A stretch of DNA of 64,000 bases from Bacteroidota bacterium (lineage in GTDB: Bacteria > Bacteroidota > Bacteroidia > Bacteroidales > JACABE01): NCBI GenBank assembly GCA_026391675.1, contig JAPLDQ010000042.1, positions 62,001 to 126,000 of the forward strand. Direction: 5' to 3'. Below, piece by piece: positions 288 to 46,223 of the stretch (its first letter is position 1; the number at the start of each line of letters is the position of its first letter). The notes beneath the pieces are model-generated. The model saw only the letters and a program-made list of their open reading frames with translations, was not told the DNA's origin and ran no database searches. A program made the translations under genes and the position numbers.

Positions 288-1055
288 CTAAATTTTAAAA
301 AGGTCAAGTGCATTTTTGGTTGTAATTTCAGCAACTTCTTCAATTGAAACTGCTTTTAACTCTGCTATCTTTTCTGCAATCAGCATTAAGTAGGCACTTT
401 CATTTCTTAAACCTCTGTAAGGTGATGGGGTTAAATAAGGTGAATCTGATTCAAGAATAATATGTTCCAGCCCAATATGGTCAATTACTTTATCCAGTCC
501 GGAGTTTTTAAAAGTAACAACACCGCCTATTCCCAGTAAAAATCCCATATCTATAATGTCTATAGCTTGCTGGTATGAGCCACCAAAACAATGAAAAACA
601 CCTCTTAAATTTTCATCTTTAACTTCTCTTACAATTTCAATGGCTTCATCAAATGAACTACGGGTATGTATGGCAACAGGTAATTTAAACTCCTTTGCCA
701 GCTCAAGCTGATATCTCAAAACAAACTCCTGTTCTTTGTGGTATGATTTGTCCCAATGAAGATCAACACCTATTTCGCCTATTCCATAATATTTGTTGGT
801 AAGCAATTCATGTCTGATAATAGATAATTCCTGCATATAATCATCTTTAACAGAAGTAGGATGCAAGCCTATCATAGGAAACATCTTGTCAGGATATTCC
901 CTGCATAAAGCGTTCATTTTGTTTATTGTAGTACTATCAATATTAGGAAGTAAAAAATAATTAATGCTATTTTGCAATGCATTTTTTATAACTTCCTGAA
1001 TATCATCCTTGTATTCATCAAGATAAAGGTGTGTATGTGTATCTACGAGTACCAT
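288..1055 (-). CDS. tatD: TatD family metal-dependent hydrolase (DNase)
   Basis: This 255-residue protein has the full TatD metal-site set: DTHTHLYLDE at the N terminus (HxH), GEIGVDLHW with the bridging Glu, PVAIHTR, a second His in VFHCFGGS, and ESDSPYLTP with the catalytic Asp. The length is typical. TatD proteins are cytoplasmic Mg-dependent 3'-5' exonucleases with roles in DNA repair and RNA quality control. The start is well placed: a promoter-like box ends only 4 bases before the ATG, so the mRNA could be leaderless. It is divergent from the GT9 gene and followed by the asparaginase gene on the same strand. Confidence 0.93.
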   Translation of the reverse strand: MVLVDTHTHLYLDEYKDDIQEVIKNALQNSINYFLLPNIDSTTINKMNALCREYPDKMFPMIGLHPTSVKDDYMQELSIIRHELLTNKYYGIGEIGVDLHWDKSYHKEQEFVLRYQLELAKEFKLPVAIHTRSSFDEAIEIVREVKDENLRGVFHCFGGSYQQAIDIIDMGFLLGIGGVVTFKNSGLDKVIDHIGLEHIILESDSPYLTPSPYRGLRNESAYLMLIAEKIAELKAVSIEEVAEITTKNALDLFKI

Positions 1056-1059
1056 AATG

Positions 1060-1067
1060 CAAAAATA
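1060..1067 (-). promoter_or_regulatory. Bacteroidota -7 box for tatD
   Basis: Read on the minus strand this is TATTTTTG, matching the TAnnTTTG -7 consensus. It ends 4 bases before the tatD ATG, so transcription would begin at or next to the start codon. No -33 element was confirmed. Confidence 0.5.
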
Positions 1068-1092
1068 GATTTATTTTTCATTTTTTATTATT

Positions 1093-1100
1093 TAATTTTG
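1093..1100 (+). promoter_or_regulatory. Bacteroidota -7 box for the GT9 gene
   Basis: TAATTTTG matches TAnnTTTG. It ends 17 bases before the proposed TTG start at 1118, leaving a 5' leader of about ten bases. With the box for tatD it forms a compact divergent promoter region. Confidence 0.5.
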
Positions 1101-1117
1101 TAAAAAATAAAAAAAAA

Positions 1118-2101
1118 TTGAAAATTCTAATTATCAGGTTTAGCTCTATTGGTGATATTGTACTGACTACCCCTGTTATAAGGTGTATTAATAAACAGCT
1201 TCCTGATGCTGAAATTCATTACCTGACAAAGCAAAAATTTTCTGATTTACTTAGCAATAACCCTTATATTCATAAGGTTCACTGTTTAAATGAAAGTATT
1301 ACAGAAACTATAAAAGAGCTCAGGAAAGAGAATTTTGATTTTATTGTTGATTTGCATCATAATCTTAGAACTTTAATAGTTAAACTTGCTTTATTAAAAC
1401 CTTCAGCTGGTTTTAATAAGTTAAATCTGCAAAAGTGGCTGCTGGTTAATTTTAAAATCAATATGCTGCCTGATATTCATATTGTTGACCGGTATTTTAA
1501 AGCTGTTAAAAAACTAAATGTTATCAATGATAAGCTTGGCCTTGATTATTTTTATCCTAACAGCGAAAAAGTAAATTTAAATACTTTGCCCGATCATTTT
1601 CAACAGGGATATTTATGTCTTGTTGTAGGTGGAAAGCATTTTACCAAACAGATTCCTGATTTAATATTAACACAACTTTGCTCTAAGACTGAAATTCCAA
1701 TAATATTATTAGGAGGTGCCGAAGATCGTGAACGGGCTGAGAATATCATAACTGCTGCAGGAAATCCTGCTGTATTTAATACTTGCGGAATTTATAATAT
1801 ACATCAGACCGCCTCTGTTATTGAACAATCTTTAAAAATAATAACGCCGGATACCGGTTTAATGCATATTGCTGCTGCGTTTAAAAAAGAAATTATTTCA
1901 CTTTGGGGTAATACCGTTACTGCTTTTGGAATGTATCCTTATTTGCCTGAAAGCGATAAAGAAAAATCACATATTTATGAAATAAATGGCTTAAAGTGCC
2001 GTCCCTGCAGTAAAATTGGATACAATTCCTGCCCCGAAAAACACTTTAATTGTATGATGCAGATAGATATTAATCAGCTACTTAAATACCTTAATAAATG
2101 A
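1118..2101 (+). CDS. Glycosyltransferase family 9 (heptosyltransferase-like)
   Basis: The 327-residue protein opens with KILIIRFSSIGDIVLTTPVI, the N-terminal signature of ADP-heptose:LPS heptosyltransferases (GT9), and carries the donor-site motif TPDTGLMHIAAAF in the C-terminal Rossmann half. A cysteine-rich C terminus (KCRPCSKIGYNSCPEKHF) is common in Bacteroidota GT9 proteins. It probably adds a heptose or related sugar to the lipopolysaccharide core at the inner face of the cytoplasmic membrane; the sugar cannot be read from sequence. The start codon appears to be TTG, because no ATG fits and the family N terminus begins exactly there. Its stop overlaps the next gene's start (ATGA), indicating translational coupling with mazG. 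Confidence 0.85.
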   Translation: MKILIIRFSSIGDIVLTTPVIRCINKQLPDAEIHYLTKQKFSDLLSNNPYIHKVHCLNESITETIKELRKENFDFIVDLHHNLRTLIVKLALLKPSAGFNKLNLQKWLLVNFKINMLPDIHIVDRYFKAVKKLNVINDKLGLDYFYPNSEKVNLNTLPDHFQQGYLCLVVGGKHFTKQIPDLILTQLCSKTEIPIILLGGAEDRERAENIITAAGNPAVFNTCGIYNIHQTASVIEQSLKIITPDTGLMHIAAAFKKEIISLWGNTVTAFGMYPYLPESDKEKSHIYEINGLKCRPCSKIGYNSCPEKHFNCMMQIDINQLLKYLNK

Positions 2102-2868
2102 CAGAAAACGCAAAAGCATTTGATCGCTTACTCGAAATAATGGACAACTTAAGAGCCAATTGCCCCTGGGACAAAAAACAAACCTTAGACAGTTTAAGAT
2201 ATTTAACCATTGAGGAAATGTATGAATTATCCGATGCCATTTTAAACAATGATATGGATGAAATACGCAAGGAATTGGGCGATTTGATGCTGCATATTGT
2301 TTTTTATGCTAAAATCGGTCAGGAAAAAGGCAGTTTTGATATGAAAGATGTGTTAAACGGCATTTGTGATAAACTGGTAAACCGTCATCCCCATATTTAT
2401 GGTGATGTAAAGGTAAATGATGCCGAAGATGTAAAAAACAACTGGGAAAAAATTAAACTGGCTGAAGGACGTACTTCTGTTTTGGAGGGAGTTCCCAATG
2501 CCTTGCCGGCCATGGTTAAGGCATACAGAATTCAGGAAAAAGTTAGAGGTGTTGGATTTGACTGGGAAGAAACACATCAGGTATGGGATAAGGTAAAAGA
2601 AGAAATAGATGAATTAAAAATTGAAATTGAGCAAAATGCTCCAAAAGCCAAGATAGAAGACGAGTTTGGCGATGTATTGTTTGCGTTGATAAACTATGCC
2701 CGCTTTATTGATATCAACCCTGAAGATGCATTGGAAAAAACAAACAGGAAATTCATTAAACGCTTTAAATACCTGGAAGGAAAAGCCCTGGAAAACGGAA
2801 GAAATCTGCATGATATGACATTGGCTGAAATGGATGTTTTCTGGAATGAGGCAAAAACAAAGGAATAA
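2098..2868 (+). CDS. mazG: Nucleoside triphosphate pyrophosphohydrolase MazG
   Basis: The 256-residue protein contains two MazG repeats, as in the roughly 263-residue E. coli enzyme. Each has the metal-binding helix pattern: ELGDLMLHIVFYAKI in the first half and EFGDVLFALINYARF in the second, with upstream acidic EEMYE and EEIDE helices. CPWDKKQTLDSL is the conserved N-terminal motif. The enzyme hydrolyses NTPs and dNTPs to monophosphates and pyrophosphate, cleaning aberrant nucleotides from the cytoplasmic pool. Its ATG overlaps the GT9 stop codon by one base (ATGA), so the two are translationally coupled. Confidence 0.94.
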   Translation: MTENAKAFDRLLEIMDNLRANCPWDKKQTLDSLRYLTIEEMYELSDAILNNDMDEIRKELGDLMLHIVFYAKIGQEKGSFDMKDVLNGICDKLVNRHPHIYGDVKVNDAEDVKNNWEKIKLAEGRTSVLEGVPNALPAMVKAYRIQEKVRGVGFDWEETHQVWDKVKEEIDELKIEIEQNAPKAKIEDEFGDVLFALINYARFIDINPEDALEKTNRKFIKRFKYLEGKALENGRNLHDMTLAEMDVFWNEAKTKE

Positions 2869-2918
2869 GTCAGTTATAAAAATTATAAAGTTATAAAGTT
2901 CATAAAGTTAAAATTTAG

Positions 2919-2924
2919 AAGGAG
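2919..2924 (+). promoter_or_regulatory. Shine-Dalgarno-like sequence before the MBL gene
   Basis: AAGGAG lies 3 bases before the ATG at 2928. Clear Shine-Dalgarno motifs are rare in this window, so this one stands out and supports the chosen start. The spacing is shorter than ideal. Confidence 0.4.
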
Positions 2925-2927
2925 AAA

Positions 2928-3563
2928 ATGATTAATATTAAAAAATTTGTATTCAACGCTTTTCAGGTAAATACCTATGTATTGTACGACGAAACCAAAG
3001 CCTGTGTTATTATTGATCCTGCCAATTACGATGGATTTGAAGACAAAGCATTGAAAGATTTCATTGAAAAAGAAAATCTGAACGTAAAAGCCCAGTTATA
3101 TACACATTGTCATATCGACCATGTGCTGGGAAGTGCTTTTGTGGGGAAAACCTATAACGTCGGCATGAGTATTCACGAAGCCAGCCGCGGTTTTCTGGAA
3201 AAAGCCTCTTCGCAAGCCAATGTATACGGATTTAATCTGAAAGAAACTGCAAAAGTTGATCATATTATCAAGGAAGGCGACAACATCATATTCGGAAACA
3301 GTGAAATGGAAGTAGTTTATACTCCCGGACATGCTGATGGCAGTGTTTGCTTTATCAATCATGCGCAAAAATTTGTAATTACCGGCGATGTCTTGTTTTA
3401 TGAAAGCATTGGCCGATCAGATTTACCTACAGGTAATTTAGACCTTTTATTTGAAAGTATTACCAAAAAACTATTTACTTTAGATGATAATTATACAGTT
3501 TATCCCGGTCATGGTCCTGAAACAAGCATAGGACATGAAAAGGTAAATAACCCGTTTTTATAA
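2928..3563 (+). CDS. MBL-fold metallohydrolase, glyoxalase II-like
   Basis: The 211-residue protein has the metallo-beta-lactamase metal ligands in order: THCHIDHVLG (HxHxDH), YTPGHADGSV, TGDVLFYESIGRSD and a C-terminal YPGHGPETS. This layout matches the short hydroxyacylglutathione hydrolase-like proteins of Bacteroidota. These have a binuclear metal centre and hydrolyse thioesters, though glutathione itself is often missing in such anaerobes, so the true substrate is open. It has no signal peptide and should be cytoplasmic. It follows mazG by 59 bases containing a TATAAAGTT-type repeat and may be transcribed with it. Confidence 0.85.
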   Translation: MINIKKFVFNAFQVNTYVLYDETKACVIIDPANYDGFEDKALKDFIEKENLNVKAQLYTHCHIDHVLGSAFVGKTYNVGMSIHEASRGFLEKASSQANVYGFNLKETAKVDHIIKEGDNIIFGNSEMEVVYTPGHADGSVCFINHAQKFVITGDVLFYESIGRSDLPTGNLDLLFESITKKLFTLDDNYTVYPGHGPETSIGHEKVNNPFL

Positions 3564-8330: not shown

Positions 8331-8385
8331 CAATAACTAAATAACTTATTAACCCAATAACTTAATAACCTAATAACCAATAACT
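8331..8385. repeat. TAATAACC/TTAATAACT-type AT-rich repeat
   Basis: Within the 319-base gap between buk and lacI is a run of loose repeats of ATAACTTA and ATAACC(T/A)A. The same words recur in the gaps at 17688-17720 and 46186-46220, so this is a dispersed intergenic repeat. The rest of the gap holds the buk terminator and the lacI promoter and operator. Confidence 0.55.
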
Positions 8386-20061: not shown

Positions 20062-20215
20062 TTATGAATTATGAATTATAAGTTATAAGTTATGAGTGGC
20101 AAGTGATAAGCGATAAGCAGCTGCAGAACACATTCAAAATTCTGAATTCTACATTCTAATTTTAAAATTCAGCGAATTTCTGCGATAAACTCTGCTGAAC
20201 TCAGCGAGAAATAAT
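20062..20215. repeat. Repeat words between the two sulfatase genes
   Basis: The 160-base gap opens with GTTATGAGTGGCAAGTG then ATAAGCGATAAG, a copy of the repeat after GH92, followed by AAATTCTGAATTCTACATTC words and CAGCGAATTTCTGCG...CTCAGCGAGAAATAA, members of the CGC-rich family that flanks the GxxExxY gene. No promoter box was recognised, so the second sulfatase may be cotranscribed with the first. Confidence 0.6.
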
Positions 20216-20221
20216 AAATAT

Positions 20222-22153
20222 ATGAAAACATTAACAAAACTGGGATGTACCATATTGGCAGGCAGCACTTCACTGCTTGCTCATGCACAGCAGCAAAAAC
20301 TACCCAATATCATCCTTATTTACACCGATGATCAGGGTTATGGCGATTTGGGATGTTTCGGGGCACAGGGATATAAAACACCCAACATCGATAAACTCGC
20401 TGCCAACGGCATACGTTTTACAGATTTTTATGCTCCTCAGGCAGTAAGCTCTGCATCAAGGGCAGGTTTACTCACCGGCTGCTATCCCAACCGTATTGGC
20501 ATTGCCGGTGCTTTAATGCCCTACGATAATAAAGGCCTGAGCGATAAAGAAGTTACCATAGCCGAAATGCTGAAACAAAGGGGCTATGCAACGGCCATGT
20601 ACGGTAAATGGCATCTGGGCAGACAAGCCAAATTCCTGCCGGTGCATCATGGTTTCGACGAATATTATGGCATTCCCTATTCAGTGGATATGATACCAAT
20701 GGAATACGACGGTACTCCGCCTAAAAACGGAAAATCCAACTATCCGCCTTTACCAGTATTATGGAACGACAGCATCATTTCAAAACTAAACAGTTTACCC
20801 GGTATTGATACTTTAACAAGATTTCTTACGGAAAAATCATTGCAGTTTATTGATAAAAATAAAGATTATCCTTTTTTTATCTATTTCCCGCATCCCATGC
20901 CCCATGTACCGTTGGGTGTAACTGATAAATTCAGAAATACCACAGCACAGGGCAAATATGGTGATGTTATTACCGAAATAGACTGGTCGGTTGGCCAGAT
21001 TGTTGAAGAACTGAAGAAACAAGGCTTATTGGATAATACCCTGATTATTTTCACCAGCGATAACGGACCTTGGCTGAACTTTGGCAAGCATGCAGGTTCT
21101 GCCGGAGGATTGCGCGAAGGCAAGGGCTGCAGTTGGGAAGGCGGACAAAGGGTTCCCTGTGTAATGTATTGGAAAGGCCATATACCCAAGGGAATTGTGA
21201 GCGATAAAATTGCTTCGGCAATAGATATTTTGCCCACTTTGGCTGAGATTACAGGCGCTAAACTACCGGAAAACAAAATTGACGGTATCAGCATATTATC
21301 ATTAATGAAAGGAAATAAAAAAGCTGAGCCACGAAAAGTCTTTCTTTATTATTATGAGAACAACCAGTTGCAGGCTATACGCTATGGCGACTGGAAACTG
21401 GCCTATCCTCATACCTATCGTTCTTATCTGGGTGTGGAGGCGGGTAAAAATGGTATGCCGGGACCATACAGTTCTTCTACTTGTGGCAAGGAATTATATA
21501 ACCTTCGCACTGACAGGGCCGAAACAAAGAATGTTATCAATGAACACCCTGATATTGTAAAAGTAATTGACTCAATAGCCGCTGCTGCCCGAGAAGATTT
21601 GGGCGATTTTCTGCTGAATATGAAAGGTAAAAACAGACGTGAACCGGGTTTTTCCTATGTTTATAAGAATAAAGTTGAACATAAAGCTTTGGGTGCTGAG
21701 GTTAAATACAATACTGCTTATAGCGTAAAATATGATGGTGGCGGAGTTAAAGCACTTACGGATGGCAATACAGGATATTCCGATTATGCACACAAGGCCT
21801 GGCAGGGATTTGAAGGTGTGGATTTTAACGCTATCATTACATTAAAAGATACCACATTGGTAAGAACAATCAGAGTGGGTGTTTTACAGGATGAAAACGC
21901 ATGGATTTTCAGACCAAAAGCAATGAAAATAGAATATTCTCTGGATGGAATAAGCTATTTCCCTTTTGGTGAAATAGATGGTAAAGATTTTACTGAAACT
22001 TCAGTTCCTAATCGCCTGGAAGGAATTATTTCCGGTCCTTTAAAACTGAAATACTTAAGAATTCAGGTAGTGAATATGGGTAAATGTCCTGATAATCATC
22101 CCGGTAAGGGACTCCCGGCATGGCTGTTTATGGATGAGATTATTGTAAATTGA
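20222..22153 (+). CDS. Serine-type arylsulfatase A-like sulfatase
   Basis: The 643-residue exported S1 sulfatase has a signal peptide ending near LLAHAQQQ, metal site IYTDDQGYGDLGCFG, activation motif QAVSSASRAGLLTG, GKWHLG, FPHPMPHVPLG and FTSDNGPWLNFG. Ser76 in S-S-A-S-R would become formylglycine; Ala replaces the usual Pro, as in many Bacteroidota sulfatases. The GYGDLGCFGAQGYKTPN start is typical of arylsulfatase A-like enzymes acting on sulfated galactose or N-acetylgalactosamine, but substrate is not decided. Residues 494-643 carry the shared C-terminal module (AWQGFEGVD, NMGKCPDNHPGKGLPAWLF). Confidence 0.93.
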   Translation: MKTLTKLGCTILAGSTSLLAHAQQQKLPNIILIYTDDQGYGDLGCFGAQGYKTPNIDKLAANGIRFTDFYAPQAVSSASRAGLLTGCYPNRIGIAGALMPYDNKGLSDKEVTIAEMLKQRGYATAMYGKWHLGRQAKFLPVHHGFDEYYGIPYSVDMIPMEYDGTPPKNGKSNYPPLPVLWNDSIISKLNSLPGIDTLTRFLTEKSLQFIDKNKDYPFFIYFPHPMPHVPLGVTDKFRNTTAQGKYGDVITEIDWSVGQIVEELKKQGLLDNTLIIFTSDNGPWLNFGKHAGSAGGLREGKGCSWEGGQRVPCVMYWKGHIPKGIVSDKIASAIDILPTLAEITGAKLPENKIDGISILSLMKGNKKAEPRKVFLYYYENNQLQAIRYGDWKLAYPHTYRSYLGVEAGKNGMPGPYSSSTCGKELYNLRTDRAETKNVINEHPDIVKVIDSIAAAAREDLGDFLLNMKGKNRREPGFSYVYKNKVEHKALGAEVKYNTAYSVKYDGGGVKALTDGNTGYSDYAHKAWQGFEGVDFNAIITLKDTTLVRTIRVGVLQDENAWIFRPKAMKIEYSLDGISYFPFGEIDGKDFTETSVPNRLEGIISGPLKLKYLRIQVVNMGKCPDNHPGKGLPAWLFMDEIIVN

Positions 22154-22215
22154 TGCAGTAATGCGATAATGCGCTGATGCGGTGATGCTGTAATGAGTTA
22201 ATTAAAAAAGTTTAT

Positions 22216-22223
22216 TAATTTTG
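22216..22223 (+). promoter_or_regulatory. Bacteroidota -7 box for four-helix-bundle gene A
   Basis: TAATTTTG matches TAnnTTTG and ends 4 bases before the ATG, so the message would be essentially leaderless. If this is the start site, the left repeat arm is not part of the transcript from this promoter. Confidence 0.5.
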
Positions 22224-22227
22224 AGTA

Positions 22228-22599
22228 ATGGAAAAAGAAAATTTAATTTTAGATAAAAGTTTTGCGTTTTCACTTAAGATTATTGATTATGCTGAAATAT
22301 TAGAAGAAAGCAGAAAATATATTTTATCCAGACAATTATTAAAATCAGGAACTTCAATCGGTGCCAATATTAATGAAGCCCAAAGTTCAGAATCCAAGGC
22401 CGATTTTATACATAAATTAAAAATTGCGGATAAAGAAGCTTATGAAACTGAATATTGGCTAAAGCTTTGTAAATTCTCAAAAAATTACCCCAATCCGGAT
22501 GCTTTAATTGAAGAATTAGTCATCCTAAAAAACTACTTTCAAAAATCATTTCTACATCCAAAAAATCATTACATAAATAATACATTATTTCATATATAA
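22228..22599 (+). CDS. Four-helix-bundle protein (23S rRNA intervening-sequence family)
   Basis: The 123-residue protein has the family signature LLKSGTSIGANINEAQSSES, KADFIHKLKIADKEAYETEYW, and helical heptads throughout. This family (four helix bundle protein, S23/IVP) was first seen as the ORF inside intervening sequences of 23S rRNA genes, and is related to the Avd accessory protein of diversity-generating retroelements; members form pentameric barrels and are thought to bind nucleic acid. The molecular role of free-standing copies is unknown. It interrupts the sulfatase-maturase gene pair and is bracketed by inverted repeats. A second member is at 31913-32284. Confidence 0.9.
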   Translation: MEKENLILDKSFAFSLKIIDYAEILEESRKYILSRQLLKSGTSIGANINEAQSSESKADFIHKLKIADKEAYETEYWLKLCKFSKNYPNPDALIEELVILKNYFQKSFLHPKNHYINNTLFHI

Positions 22600-22642
22600 A
22601 TCATCGTATCAGCACATTACCGCATCATCGTATTAACACATT

Positions 22643-23803
22643 ATGATAAGAAAACCCCTCAATACCATCATCGTTAAAACCACGGGCTCACGCTGTAACC
22701 TGAACTGTGATTATTGCTTTTACCTTCGTAAAGACCTTGTTTACAATGATCAAAATGTTATGAAGGAAGAAGTTCTGGAGAACTTTATCCGTCAGCTTAT
22801 TGAACAGAGTGGCAGCAGTTTTGGAATTGTCTGGCAGGGTGGAGAGCCAAGTCTGGCCGGGGCTGCATTTTTCAGAAAAGCCATTTCACTGATGATTAAA
22901 TATGGTGAAGGCAAAAATAAACTCATCAGTAATTTATTGCAAACCAATGGCTATGCCTTAAGCAATGATTTAATCGATGTCCTGGCCGAATATTCCTTTC
23001 TGGTCGGTATATCCATTGATGGACCGGAAGATATACATAATGCATTCAGAAAGACAGCTTCAGGAAAAGGAAGCTGGAAAGAAGTAATGCGCAGTTGGCA
23101 AAAGCTTGAAGACAGAAAAATTGCAACAAATATCCTTAGCTGTATAACCGCAAATTCATCGAAACAAGCAGAAAGGATTTACATTTTTTTTAAAAAGCAT
23201 TCCATGCAGTGGCTGCAGTTTATTCCGGTAATGGAGTTTGATAAAAATGGTAGTATAGCTGATTTTTCAGTTTCAGCCAAAGATTGGGGCAATTTTATGT
23301 GTCAGATTTTTGATTTTTGGTATCAGGATTTTCTAAGTAATAATCAGCTACCATCCATACGCTTTATCGAAAATGCCTTTCAGGCTCACCTTGGCCTGGC
23401 GGCCGTTGAATGTACTTTTGCTGAGGAATGTGGTAATTATCTGGTGCTGGAACATAATGGTGATGTCTTTTCCTGCGATTATCTGGTTGGAACGGATACT
23501 AATCTTGGCAATATTGAGCAAAACAAGTTGATTGAGATGTTAAACAGCAATCAGCAGATTGATTTTGGAAAAGAAAAAACCAATATGCATACCGATTGCA
23601 ATAATTGCCGATGGTTGAGGTTCTGTTATGGAGGATGCCTGAAATACCGTGATAATGAAACAAATAAGAACTATTTCTGCGAATCATGGAAGCAGTTTTT
23701 AAATTACAGCGAATCACGTTTCGAATTAATTGCTGAACAATACATAAAAACACATCCTGAAGTTAAAAATACAAGCATAGATATTTCAGGATATTTTCAG
23801 TAA
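22643..23803 (+). CDS. Anaerobic sulfatase-maturating enzyme (radical SAM)
   Basis: The 386-residue protein has the radical SAM cluster motif SRCNLNCDYCFYL (Cys18, Cys22, Cys25) and a SPASM C terminus (CTFAEECGNYLVL, FSCDYLVG, CNNCRWLRFCYGGCLKYRD) that holds two auxiliary 4Fe-4S clusters. These features identify anSME, which oxidises the active-site Cys or Ser of sulfatases to formylglycine in the cytoplasm before export. Both sulfatases upstream are serine type, which the aerobic enzyme cannot use, so the pairing is functional. The ATG lies at the end of the right repeat arm of unit A, so its native leader may have been replaced. Confidence 0.95.
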   Translation: MIRKPLNTIIVKTTGSRCNLNCDYCFYLRKDLVYNDQNVMKEEVLENFIRQLIEQSGSSFGIVWQGGEPSLAGAAFFRKAISLMIKYGEGKNKLISNLLQTNGYALSNDLIDVLAEYSFLVGISIDGPEDIHNAFRKTASGKGSWKEVMRSWQKLEDRKIATNILSCITANSSKQAERIYIFFKKHSMQWLQFIPVMEFDKNGSIADFSVSAKDWGNFMCQIFDFWYQDFLSNNQLPSIRFIENAFQAHLGLAAVECTFAEECGNYLVLEHNGDVFSCDYLVGTDTNLGNIEQNKLIEMLNSNQQIDFGKEKTNMHTDCNNCRWLRFCYGGCLKYRDNETNKNYFCESWKQFLNYSESRFELIAEQYIKTHPEVKNTSIDISGYFQ

Positions 23804-31869: not shown

Positions 31870-32332
31870 AGTACTTGGAGTGCCTTGATTACTTGGAGTA
31901 CTTATTAGTATTTTATTCTTTCTGAGTACTTTTTATTTTATTAGCAATTGAGGTAAAAATAGCCAGCAATTCATTAGCTTCTGTATAAACTGGTTCAATT
32001 ACTTCAGATTTCACCCAATTCAGTTCTTTAATTATTTCAATCCAATAAACTGTTTCACTCGCTTCACTTACACTTATTTTAATTTTATTATAAAAGTCTG
32101 ATTTACTTCTTGATCTGTTAGCTTCCCGATAATTAGCCCCTATGCTGGTTTCTGATTTGCAAAGCTGATTTCGAAAAACAAATCCTTCAGAATTATTGGG
32201 CAAACTAACACAAAGTTTTACTATTTCAATAGCAAATTTCTTTGTTCTGTTTTCCAACTGTAAACTAAACTCTTTATTATCCATATTTTGTGCTGTTTTT
32301 TAACTCCAAGTACTCAAGGCACTCTAAGTACT
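31870..32332. mobile_element. IVS-like unit B: 30-bp inverted repeats around a four-helix-bundle gene
   Basis: The left arm 31870-31899 (AGTACTTGGAGTGCCTTGAT...) and the right arm 32303-32332 (ACTCCAAGTACTCAAGGCAC...) are inverted copies with 28 of 30 positions identical; one mismatch would still pair as G-U. They stand 13 bases after the stop and 18 bases before the start of the enclosed gene, and nothing else lies between them. Solo copies of the same repeat occur at 16147-16195 and 27577-27620. Mobility is inferred. Confidence 0.6.
31913..32284 (-). CDS. Four-helix-bundle protein (23S rRNA intervening-sequence family)
   Basis: The 123-residue protein shows the same family signature as the gene at 22228: LCKSETSIGANYREANRSRS, KSDFYNKIKISVSEASETVYW, with a helical C terminus (ELLAIFTSIANKIKSTQKE). 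The two are clearly related but not recent duplicates, and the repeats around them belong to different families. Members of this family are found inside IVS elements of 23S rRNA genes and as single genes; their function is unknown, with nucleic-acid binding suspected. It sits between guaA and the M23 peptidase gene inside a 30-bp inverted repeat. Confidence 0.9.
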   Translation of the reverse strand: MDNKEFSLQLENRTKKFAIEIVKLCVSLPNNSEGFVFRNQLCKSETSIGANYREANRSRSKSDFYNKIKISVSEASETVYWIEIIKELNWVKSEVIEPVYTEANELLAIFTSIANKIKSTQKE

Positions 32333-41670: not shown

Positions 41671-41953
41671 AACTATTTATTAAAATAAGAATGATGTAAA
41701 AATATAGAATATTTTACTAATTTGAGCATTTAGTTATTTCAAATATGGTTAAATTACGACACTTCGACCGAGCTCAGTGTAAAAATAAAAATTACGAATT
41801 ACGAATTACGATCTTTTAGCTGTGATTTGTATTTTCCCAATAATCTTCAAAATTTTAAATATTTGTATGCGATATTATTTTTAACGCAAAAGTGAATGTT
41901 TTTTTTGAATTATATTCTTTTTTAACTCATAACTAATATCTTATAACTCATAA
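41671..41953. other. Gap with repeat fragments before the ABC transporter genes
   Basis: No gene seen. GACACTTCGACCGAGCTCAG then TGT (41758-41780) resembles CACTTCGACTACGCTCAGTG at 30233-30252, and ATTACGAATTACGAATTACG is a short tandem run at about 41791. Confidence 0.45.
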
Positions 41954-46127: not shown

Positions 46128-46223
46128 TTTCTATTTTTGAATTTAAGTTAACAGGAAGTTCTTTTAAATAAAGTATTCTTAAGCAAAATAACCCAATAAC
46201 TTAATAACTTAATAACTAAAATC

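Follow-up and report, generated by a model that had tools for sequence, protein, structure and literature searches.

An S23 gene between inverted octamer arms at a sulfatase/maturase junction: a probable copy of a mobile repeat element

Intervening sequences (IVS) of 23S rRNA genes have 28-bp ends, are excised by RNase III and have been discussed as mobile elements, as stated in the accessible part of a published account (PMC4990558). In IVS with an S23 open reading frame (ORF), for example that of Coxiella, the ORF is described there as lying in the loop between complementary, stem-forming ends; these IVS are scattered in their presence and are regarded as selfish elements. We analyzed a unit of this kind in a stretch of 64,000 nt from a Bacteroidota bacterium (contig JAPLDQ010000042.1, positions 62,001 to 126,000), which is called the window throughout. 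The window unit resembles the IVS in its S23 ORF, its stem-forming ends and the scattered presence of such units, but it sits between two protein genes, encoding a sulfatase and an anSME-like sulfatase maturase, and not inside a 23S rRNA gene. Compared to the accessible part of the IVS account, tandem-repeat arms, the coupling of the repeat word to the S23 subfamily and cognate arrays throughout the genome are features of the units presented here.

Similarities to other systems were also seen. REPIN/RAYT systems, as far as they are covered by the accessible part of PMC3116915, likewise have a gene flanked by a repeat family of its own, several such families per genome and many gene-less copies, both single and as inverted pairs, as was the case here for the genome of the window (G000) and for its relative G026. 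The REPIN repeat is palindromic, whereas tandem heptamers or octamers are found in S23 units, and the framed gene encodes a Y1 tyrosine transposase, whereas the S23 unit encodes a small helical protein; the Y1 genes of G000 lie elsewhere. Heptamer families have been reported with the words GGGAATC in Xanthomonas and GGGGATT in Nostoc, with 70 inverted heptamer pairs in one Xanthomonas campestris genome (PMC4692102), and with the word TAACTGA in Beggiatoaceae, Cyanobacteria and Bacteroidetes (PMC4679880). Like the S23 units they form intergenic arrays near stop and start codons with a spotty distribution; the accessible parts of the two reports name no mechanism of spread and, in contrast to our observations, describe no link to S23. 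Avd of the diversity-generating retroelements belongs to a homologous protein family, as can be taken from the accessible part of PMC10053308. A reverse transcriptase (RT) gene stands beside the Avd-like gene in those elements, but none stands beside the window unit. A literature search, which left most subscription journals outside, revealed no publication linking S23 genes to heptamer arms.

The window unit and its two neighbors comprise the following features.

20222–22153, plus strand: sulfatase gene (ORF, PF00884); the left arm's first octamer begins with its TGA stop (22151–22153)
22151–22195, plus strand: left arm, octamer array TGATGCAG TAATGCGA TAATGCGC TGATGCGG TGATGCTG TAATG (from the sequence and the array search)
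22228–22599, plus strand: S23 (four-helix-bundle) gene for a protein of 123 aa (ORF and match to PF05635, 23S rRNA-intervening sequence protein)
22600–22643, minus strand: right arm, with the octamer family of the left arm on the minus strand; it reaches the anSME start codon
22643–23803, plus strand: anSME-like sulfatase maturase gene, radical SAM and SPASM (ORF and domain matches)

The ORF at 22228–22599 matched PF05635 with an E-value of 7.5e-22. Both arms are arrays of degenerate octamers, e.g., TAATGCGA TAATGCGC TGATGCGG. The left array was detected at 22153–22195 with a period of 8, and octamer TGATGCAG starts earlier, on the stop codon at 22151. A preliminary description of this DNA had counted 28 inverted matches over the 37 positions of 22166–22202 and 22608–22644, plus four additional G-U pairs, and our recount gave identical numbers; the remaining mismatches include three A-C. 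It was also correct in letting the right arm reach the anSME ATG at 22643, but not in letting the left arm start after the sulfatase stop, since the array overlaps the stop. The best ungapped inverted register was 22159–22187 with 22615–22643 (29 nt, 83%). With a first-order Markov model of both intergenic stretches of the unit as null, none of 2000 resamplings came up to its score of 16.5 (mean 7.0, maximum 14). The arms paired when folded as RNA (z −4.1). An Rfam search at the unit matched no family.

We compared the sulfatase/anSME junction to two genomes of the same genus, G001 and G002, which have maturase relatives with 68% and 66% identity to the window anSME. In both genomes the sulfatase stop overlaps the maturase start with nothing between them (CTGATGGC in G001 and GTAATGAT in G002, i.e., TGATG and TAATG). 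The junction is thus empty in two congeners, which supports the earlier view that the window unit is an insertion. The further suggestion that the insertion took the place of a native maturase leader had to be rejected: since stop and start overlap in both congeners, there was no leader to be replaced. Judged from these junctions, a stop/start overlap is the most likely point of entry of the unit. The nuoJ/nuoK junction consists of two bases in G003 and G004, and the gmk/nadD junction has at most 6 bases in G001–G004 and is overlapping in G004; both junctions are occupied by a unit in G000. The window junction fits a 3-nt ATG target repeat, but ATG also occurs within the arm word.

Arms of this kind were found at most S23 genes of this genome and its relatives. 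G000 has 13 PF05635 matches, 12 of them above the cut-off, and 11 of the 13 were armed with tandem 7–9-mers as judged by eye or by score (L012 by eye, with a score of 9.5). When G000 was searched together with 39 relatives, 29 of the 40 genomes had the family. The 126 merged units included 118 with enough flanking sequence, and 67% of these reached an inverted upstream-versus-downstream score of at least 13; among 705 mismatched pairs and 59 control ORFs the shares were 4.1% and 5.1%, respectively. After removal of one duplicate, the 79 of 117 units with a score of at least 13 were used for arm statistics. The arm period was 7 in 48, 8 in 18 and 9 in 6 of 78 armed units, arm lengths varied between units, and G exceeded C in the left arm of 72 of the 79. 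The arm words were diverse (GGCAATA, AGTTATTA, AATTAGG, AAGGCTC, CGGGTTG and others). Stops in all frames were considered as an explanation for the 7- and 8-nt periods, but this candidate turned out to be only weak, with all three frames stopped in 36 of 79 left arms and in 29 right arms. The genes neighboring S23 units were of many kinds. Gene context (neighbor direction, stop distances and orientation of solo arrays) was judged here and below by ORF length and not from curated genes; on this basis both neighbors were codirectional with S23 in 60 of 79 units and both opposite in 2 of 79. The S23 genes L005, L010 and L012 of G000 are broken by in-frame stops, and their arms are still recognizable (L005 and L010 by score, L012 by eye).

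The octamer subfamily of the window unit was also scored in named genomes, where 80 loci gave 84 scored units (match L146 was skipped due to a short flank). By title, all loci were from Bacteroidota except one titled Bifidobacterium. A score of at least 13 was reached by 66 of the 84 units, with a period of 8 in 62 of these 66. The subfamily octamer R-A-T-K-W-G-N-N (RATKWGNN) is kept across Bacteroidota, and the left arm of the window agrees with it, with the exception of a C at position 5. The information per octamer position was nearly equal for left arms and reverse-complemented right arms (225 and 226 octamers). Own arms matched with a value of 19.0 compared to 11.5 for cross-unit arms of the same subfamily (p = 4e-15); the variable positions of both arms therefore change together. 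G exceeded C in the left arm in 60 of 66 armed units, and the neighbors on both sides had the direction of S23 in 57 of 66 and the opposite direction in 1 of 66. Between the upstream stop and the start of the left arm lay a median of 1 nt, and no more than 15 nt in 46 of 63 units. In locus L185, from the record titled as a Bifidobacterium breve metagenome-assembled genome (MAG), arms and spacing are identical to those of the Flavobacterium locus L167; this MAG probably carries a wrong label or contamination.

Wobble pairs had earlier been counted towards an RNA stem. As a general sign they failed, since G-U mismatches (in the sense RNA) were not above A-C mismatches either in the 79-unit set (76 vs. 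104) or in the named set (62 vs. 80). Judging RNA-stem selection from wobble pairs was dropped for this reason.

The arm word follows the S23 subfamily. Similarity of arm words between genomes increased with S23 identity (r = 0.41, with a maximum of 0.11 in 1000 permutations): the word was shared by 94% of pairs with at least 70% identity, by 62% at 60–70%, by 16% at 50–60% and by about 2% below 40%. Among the 63 S23 pairs with at least 60% identity, 56 were without a homologous flanking gene, with homologous flanks counted only within about 1.5 kb of the unit. The word was kept in 39 of these 56 pairs, and we conclude from this that arms and gene travel together. The earlier idea that each unit may carry its own stem was thereby strengthened, as the word follows the subfamily also with differing flanking genes. 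Conversely, one and the same site, upstream of gene MNIIEKILASHSN..., is occupied in G000 by a unit with the word GTTATTA (L003) but in G001 and G004 by units with the word GATTTGG (L052 and L069). In the same-site pair L107/L110, which is 70% identical, the word has changed in both arms.

Armed S23 units are not restricted to Bacteroidota. A plasmid collection contained 40 records with S23, 12 of which were fetched and scored, and a 13th, from Gemmatirosa, was scored separately. Inverted heptamer arms were present in 12 of the 12 units and also in Gemmatirosa. The armed hosts from the collection were Nostoc, Anabaena, Calothrix, Pseudanabaena, Stanieria, Aulosira, Geminocystis, Azospirillum and Riemerella, the last belonging to Bacteroidota. 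Unit L339 of Azospirillum lipoferum lies inside a 23S rRNA gene (LSU_rRNA_bacteria, 292–3339) and is a classical intervening sequence, with the stem CAGAGGA CGGATGA CAGAGGA CGGAGGA. Since the heptamer arms of this rRNA unit are of the type seen between cistrons, intercistronic units and the rRNA intervening sequence seem to form a single class. A junction on Nostoc plasmids was found in three states: without an insert, with a GGGAAC hairpin that lacks the gene, and with a complete S23 unit.

The plasmids of Anabaena sp. 90 (L330) and Pseudanabaena galeata (L332) carry S23 units in type I-D CRISPR operons, where they separate cas6 from cas4, and the right arm of the Anabaena unit lies within the annotated start of cas4. 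In Dolichospermum UHCC 0315A, the DNA of which is 98.7% identical to that of Anabaena sp. 90 at cas6/cas4, this junction (L342:1100–1400) holds a different hairpin insert with GTAGGTTGGGTTGA ends and no S23 unit.

Arrays without the gene were frequent. For the word AGTTATTA, 237 matches were counted in G000 compared to 16 for the reversed control (three copies, at most 3 mismatches); elsewhere, only G001 had many (48), where unit L046 has a related word, and the other 38 genomes had 0–6. The AAGGCTC word had 336 matches in G026 compared to 8 for the control, and several of these arrays are plus/minus pairs 65–110 bases apart, which leaves no room for S23. These counts, like those for the octamer motif, are overlapping matches and not separate arrays. 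The octamer motif was abundant in 10 of 40 genomes, namely in 6 of 9 with an octamer-armed unit and in 4 of 31 without (Fisher p = 0.003). S23 was found in none of 40 array regions of G000. Seven of the 40 regions scored as inverted pairs, of which L291 and L308 have long spacers with other ORFs, and the rest were solo. Solo arrays often adjoin an ORF end and, unlike S23 units, showed no orientation preference (13 vs. 15). Gene-less arms, raised in the preliminary description as an argument against arms belonging to the unit, do occur, but as relatives at other sites. The window itself contains the following arrays and a second S23 unit.

8332–8378, minus strand: solo array AATAACTTAATAACC, word of units L003/L004
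20062–20118, plus strand: solo array TTATGAATTATGAATTATAAG..., directly past the first sulfatase stop, no S23 gene; word of L005/L006
31870–32332, minus strand: unit B, a second S23 unit, with the S23 match at 31955–32260 and arms at 31870–31899 and 32303–32332, word AGTACTTGG
41781–41811, plus strand: short solo heptamer array AATTACGAATTACG (array search)
46187–46220, minus strand: solo array AATAACTTAATAAC, word of units L003/L004

The array at 20062–20118 carries the word of the nuoJ/nuoK unit L005 and has no obvious partner arm. Unit B is locus L009 (contig positions 92455–95760; window positions are contig positions minus 62000). Its arms are built of the 9-mer word AGTACTTGG, in agreement with the earlier statement that its repeat family is unrelated to that of the window unit.

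The closest solved structure to the window S23 in a profile search was 2rld_A (five chains, E-value 3.8e-44), and a second near relative was 2gsc (xcc0516 of Xanthomonas campestris), also with five chains. A pentameric ring is stated for the Xanthomonas S23 protein in the accessible parts of PMC4990558 and PMC10053308. For S23, the ratio of nonsynonymous to synonymous substitution rates (dN/dS) was 0.06–0.09 in 5 pairs with estimable dS, while three pairs were saturated and one was without synonymous change. By these ratios S23 is under strong purifying selection and not a decaying passenger. The five Y1 (RAYT-type) transposase genes of G000 (L263–L267) stand beside their own short palindromic repeats, e.g., CTCCGTTAGGAG and GTCCCTACGGGAC; since these repeats differ, RAYT was rejected as owner of the S23 arms. 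G000 has one RT match, on contig C4, and the window is on contig C6. No match to PF00078 (RT) was found in 11 S23-bearing genomes of the set, some of which are incomplete. RT is therefore not needed for the presence of S23 and was rejected as a necessary partner.

We consider the window unit to be probably a copy of a mobile element, with the S23 gene between inverted arms of degenerate 7–8-nt repeats as the element's own ends. It appears to belong to a widespread, largely unrecognized class of mobile DNA, and the classical rRNA intervening sequence is best read as a special case of the mobile S23 element. We infer a common origin with S23 elements for GGGAATC, TAACTGA and similar families, which would be solo arrays of such elements. 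S23, as a homologue of pentameric proteins and of Avd, would recognize its own repeat word and would help a host enzyme, both in cis and in trans, to copy or insert arm-bearing DNA. The window unit would be transcribed together with the operon, its arms pairing in the transcript, which would probably be cut at the arms as RNase III cuts rRNA intervening sequences; through such cutting, an insertion between cistrons could be tolerated. The strand bias, the operon position and the IVS case suggest such processing, although the likeness of the arms may be kept by copying or by DNA pairing instead of an RNA stem. As a tentative but plausible generalization, S23 and its cognate words would form a two-part mobile-repeat system without a recognizable transposase, present at least in Bacteroidota, Cyanobacteriota, Gemmatimonadota and Alphaproteobacteria, with full copies lodged in rRNA loops or where stop and start codons meet within operons, solo arrays that make up several of the orphan heptamer families, and each subfamily reading its own word.

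Several observations weigh against a mobile S23 element. Neither a catalytic enzyme nor a target-site duplication was found for S23 units. Word and protein are physically linked, and joint inheritance alone is no proof of recognition. Clear arms were lacking by the inverted score in 33% of the 118 units and in 18 of the 84 named units; L011 and L013 of G000 showed none, nor did the unit on the one phage record examined of two with S23. At the TraM site, for which an empty form was found, the native spacer was lost on insertion, so that insertion was not always clean. Four of the 10 genomes rich in octamer arrays had no detected octamer unit, and G010 (600 contigs) had 94 octamer-motif matches and no S23 hit; either the arrays outlived the gene or the S23 gene was missed. 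The absent G-U excess does not favor an RNA stem as the selected feature.

Other explanations are less probable. The arms could be the ends for an unrelated host transposase and S23 its cargo, as in a miniature inverted-repeat transposable element. Gene-less hairpins are common, S23 has no known catalytic domain and G000 has five Y1 genes, all of which would fit, but a shared transposase does not predict a word that changes with the S23 subfamily, the Y1 genes are framed by different, short palindromic repeats, and S23 is under purifying selection; we regard this explanation as unlikely. It is quite improbable that the unit is a resident regulatory device, as the preliminary description suggested, with an RNA stem controlling the downstream gene and mobility being incidental. 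The strong operon-direction bias (60 vs. 2 and 57 vs. 1), the position of the arms near stop and start, their pairing in the RNA fold and the joint change of both arms agree with such a device. The many kinds of neighbor genes, the common empty sites (sulfatase/anSME, nuoJ/nuoK, gmk/nadD, TraM), the missing excess of sense G-U and the solo arrays without orientation preference do not.

For a retroelement, in which S23 would act like Avd with a reverse transcriptase in trans, speak the resemblance of PF05635 to Avd, as described in the accessible part of PMC10053308, the operon-direction bias, which fits an RNA intermediate, and the one RT of G000; with the 11 S23-bearing genomes that gave no PF00078 match, some of them incomplete, we see little chance for it. 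Arms that grew on site by slippage as simple repeats, unrelated to the gene, would be tandem repeats of varying length, as observed. This explanation is largely excluded by the word-subfamily coupling and the unrelated-site pairs, in that a given S23 subfamily has its word even at unrelated sites and in other families; the arms were also inverted far more often than the controls, and we consider local slippage very improbable.

How S23 and the rRNA intervening sequences function and spread has been an open question for more than 25 years, as stated in the accessible part of PMC4990558. If true, the coupling of word to S23 subfamily joins this puzzle with the orphan heptamer families and makes both testable. 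It would also explain the many small S23 genes within operons, such as the one between the sulfatase and the maturase gene.
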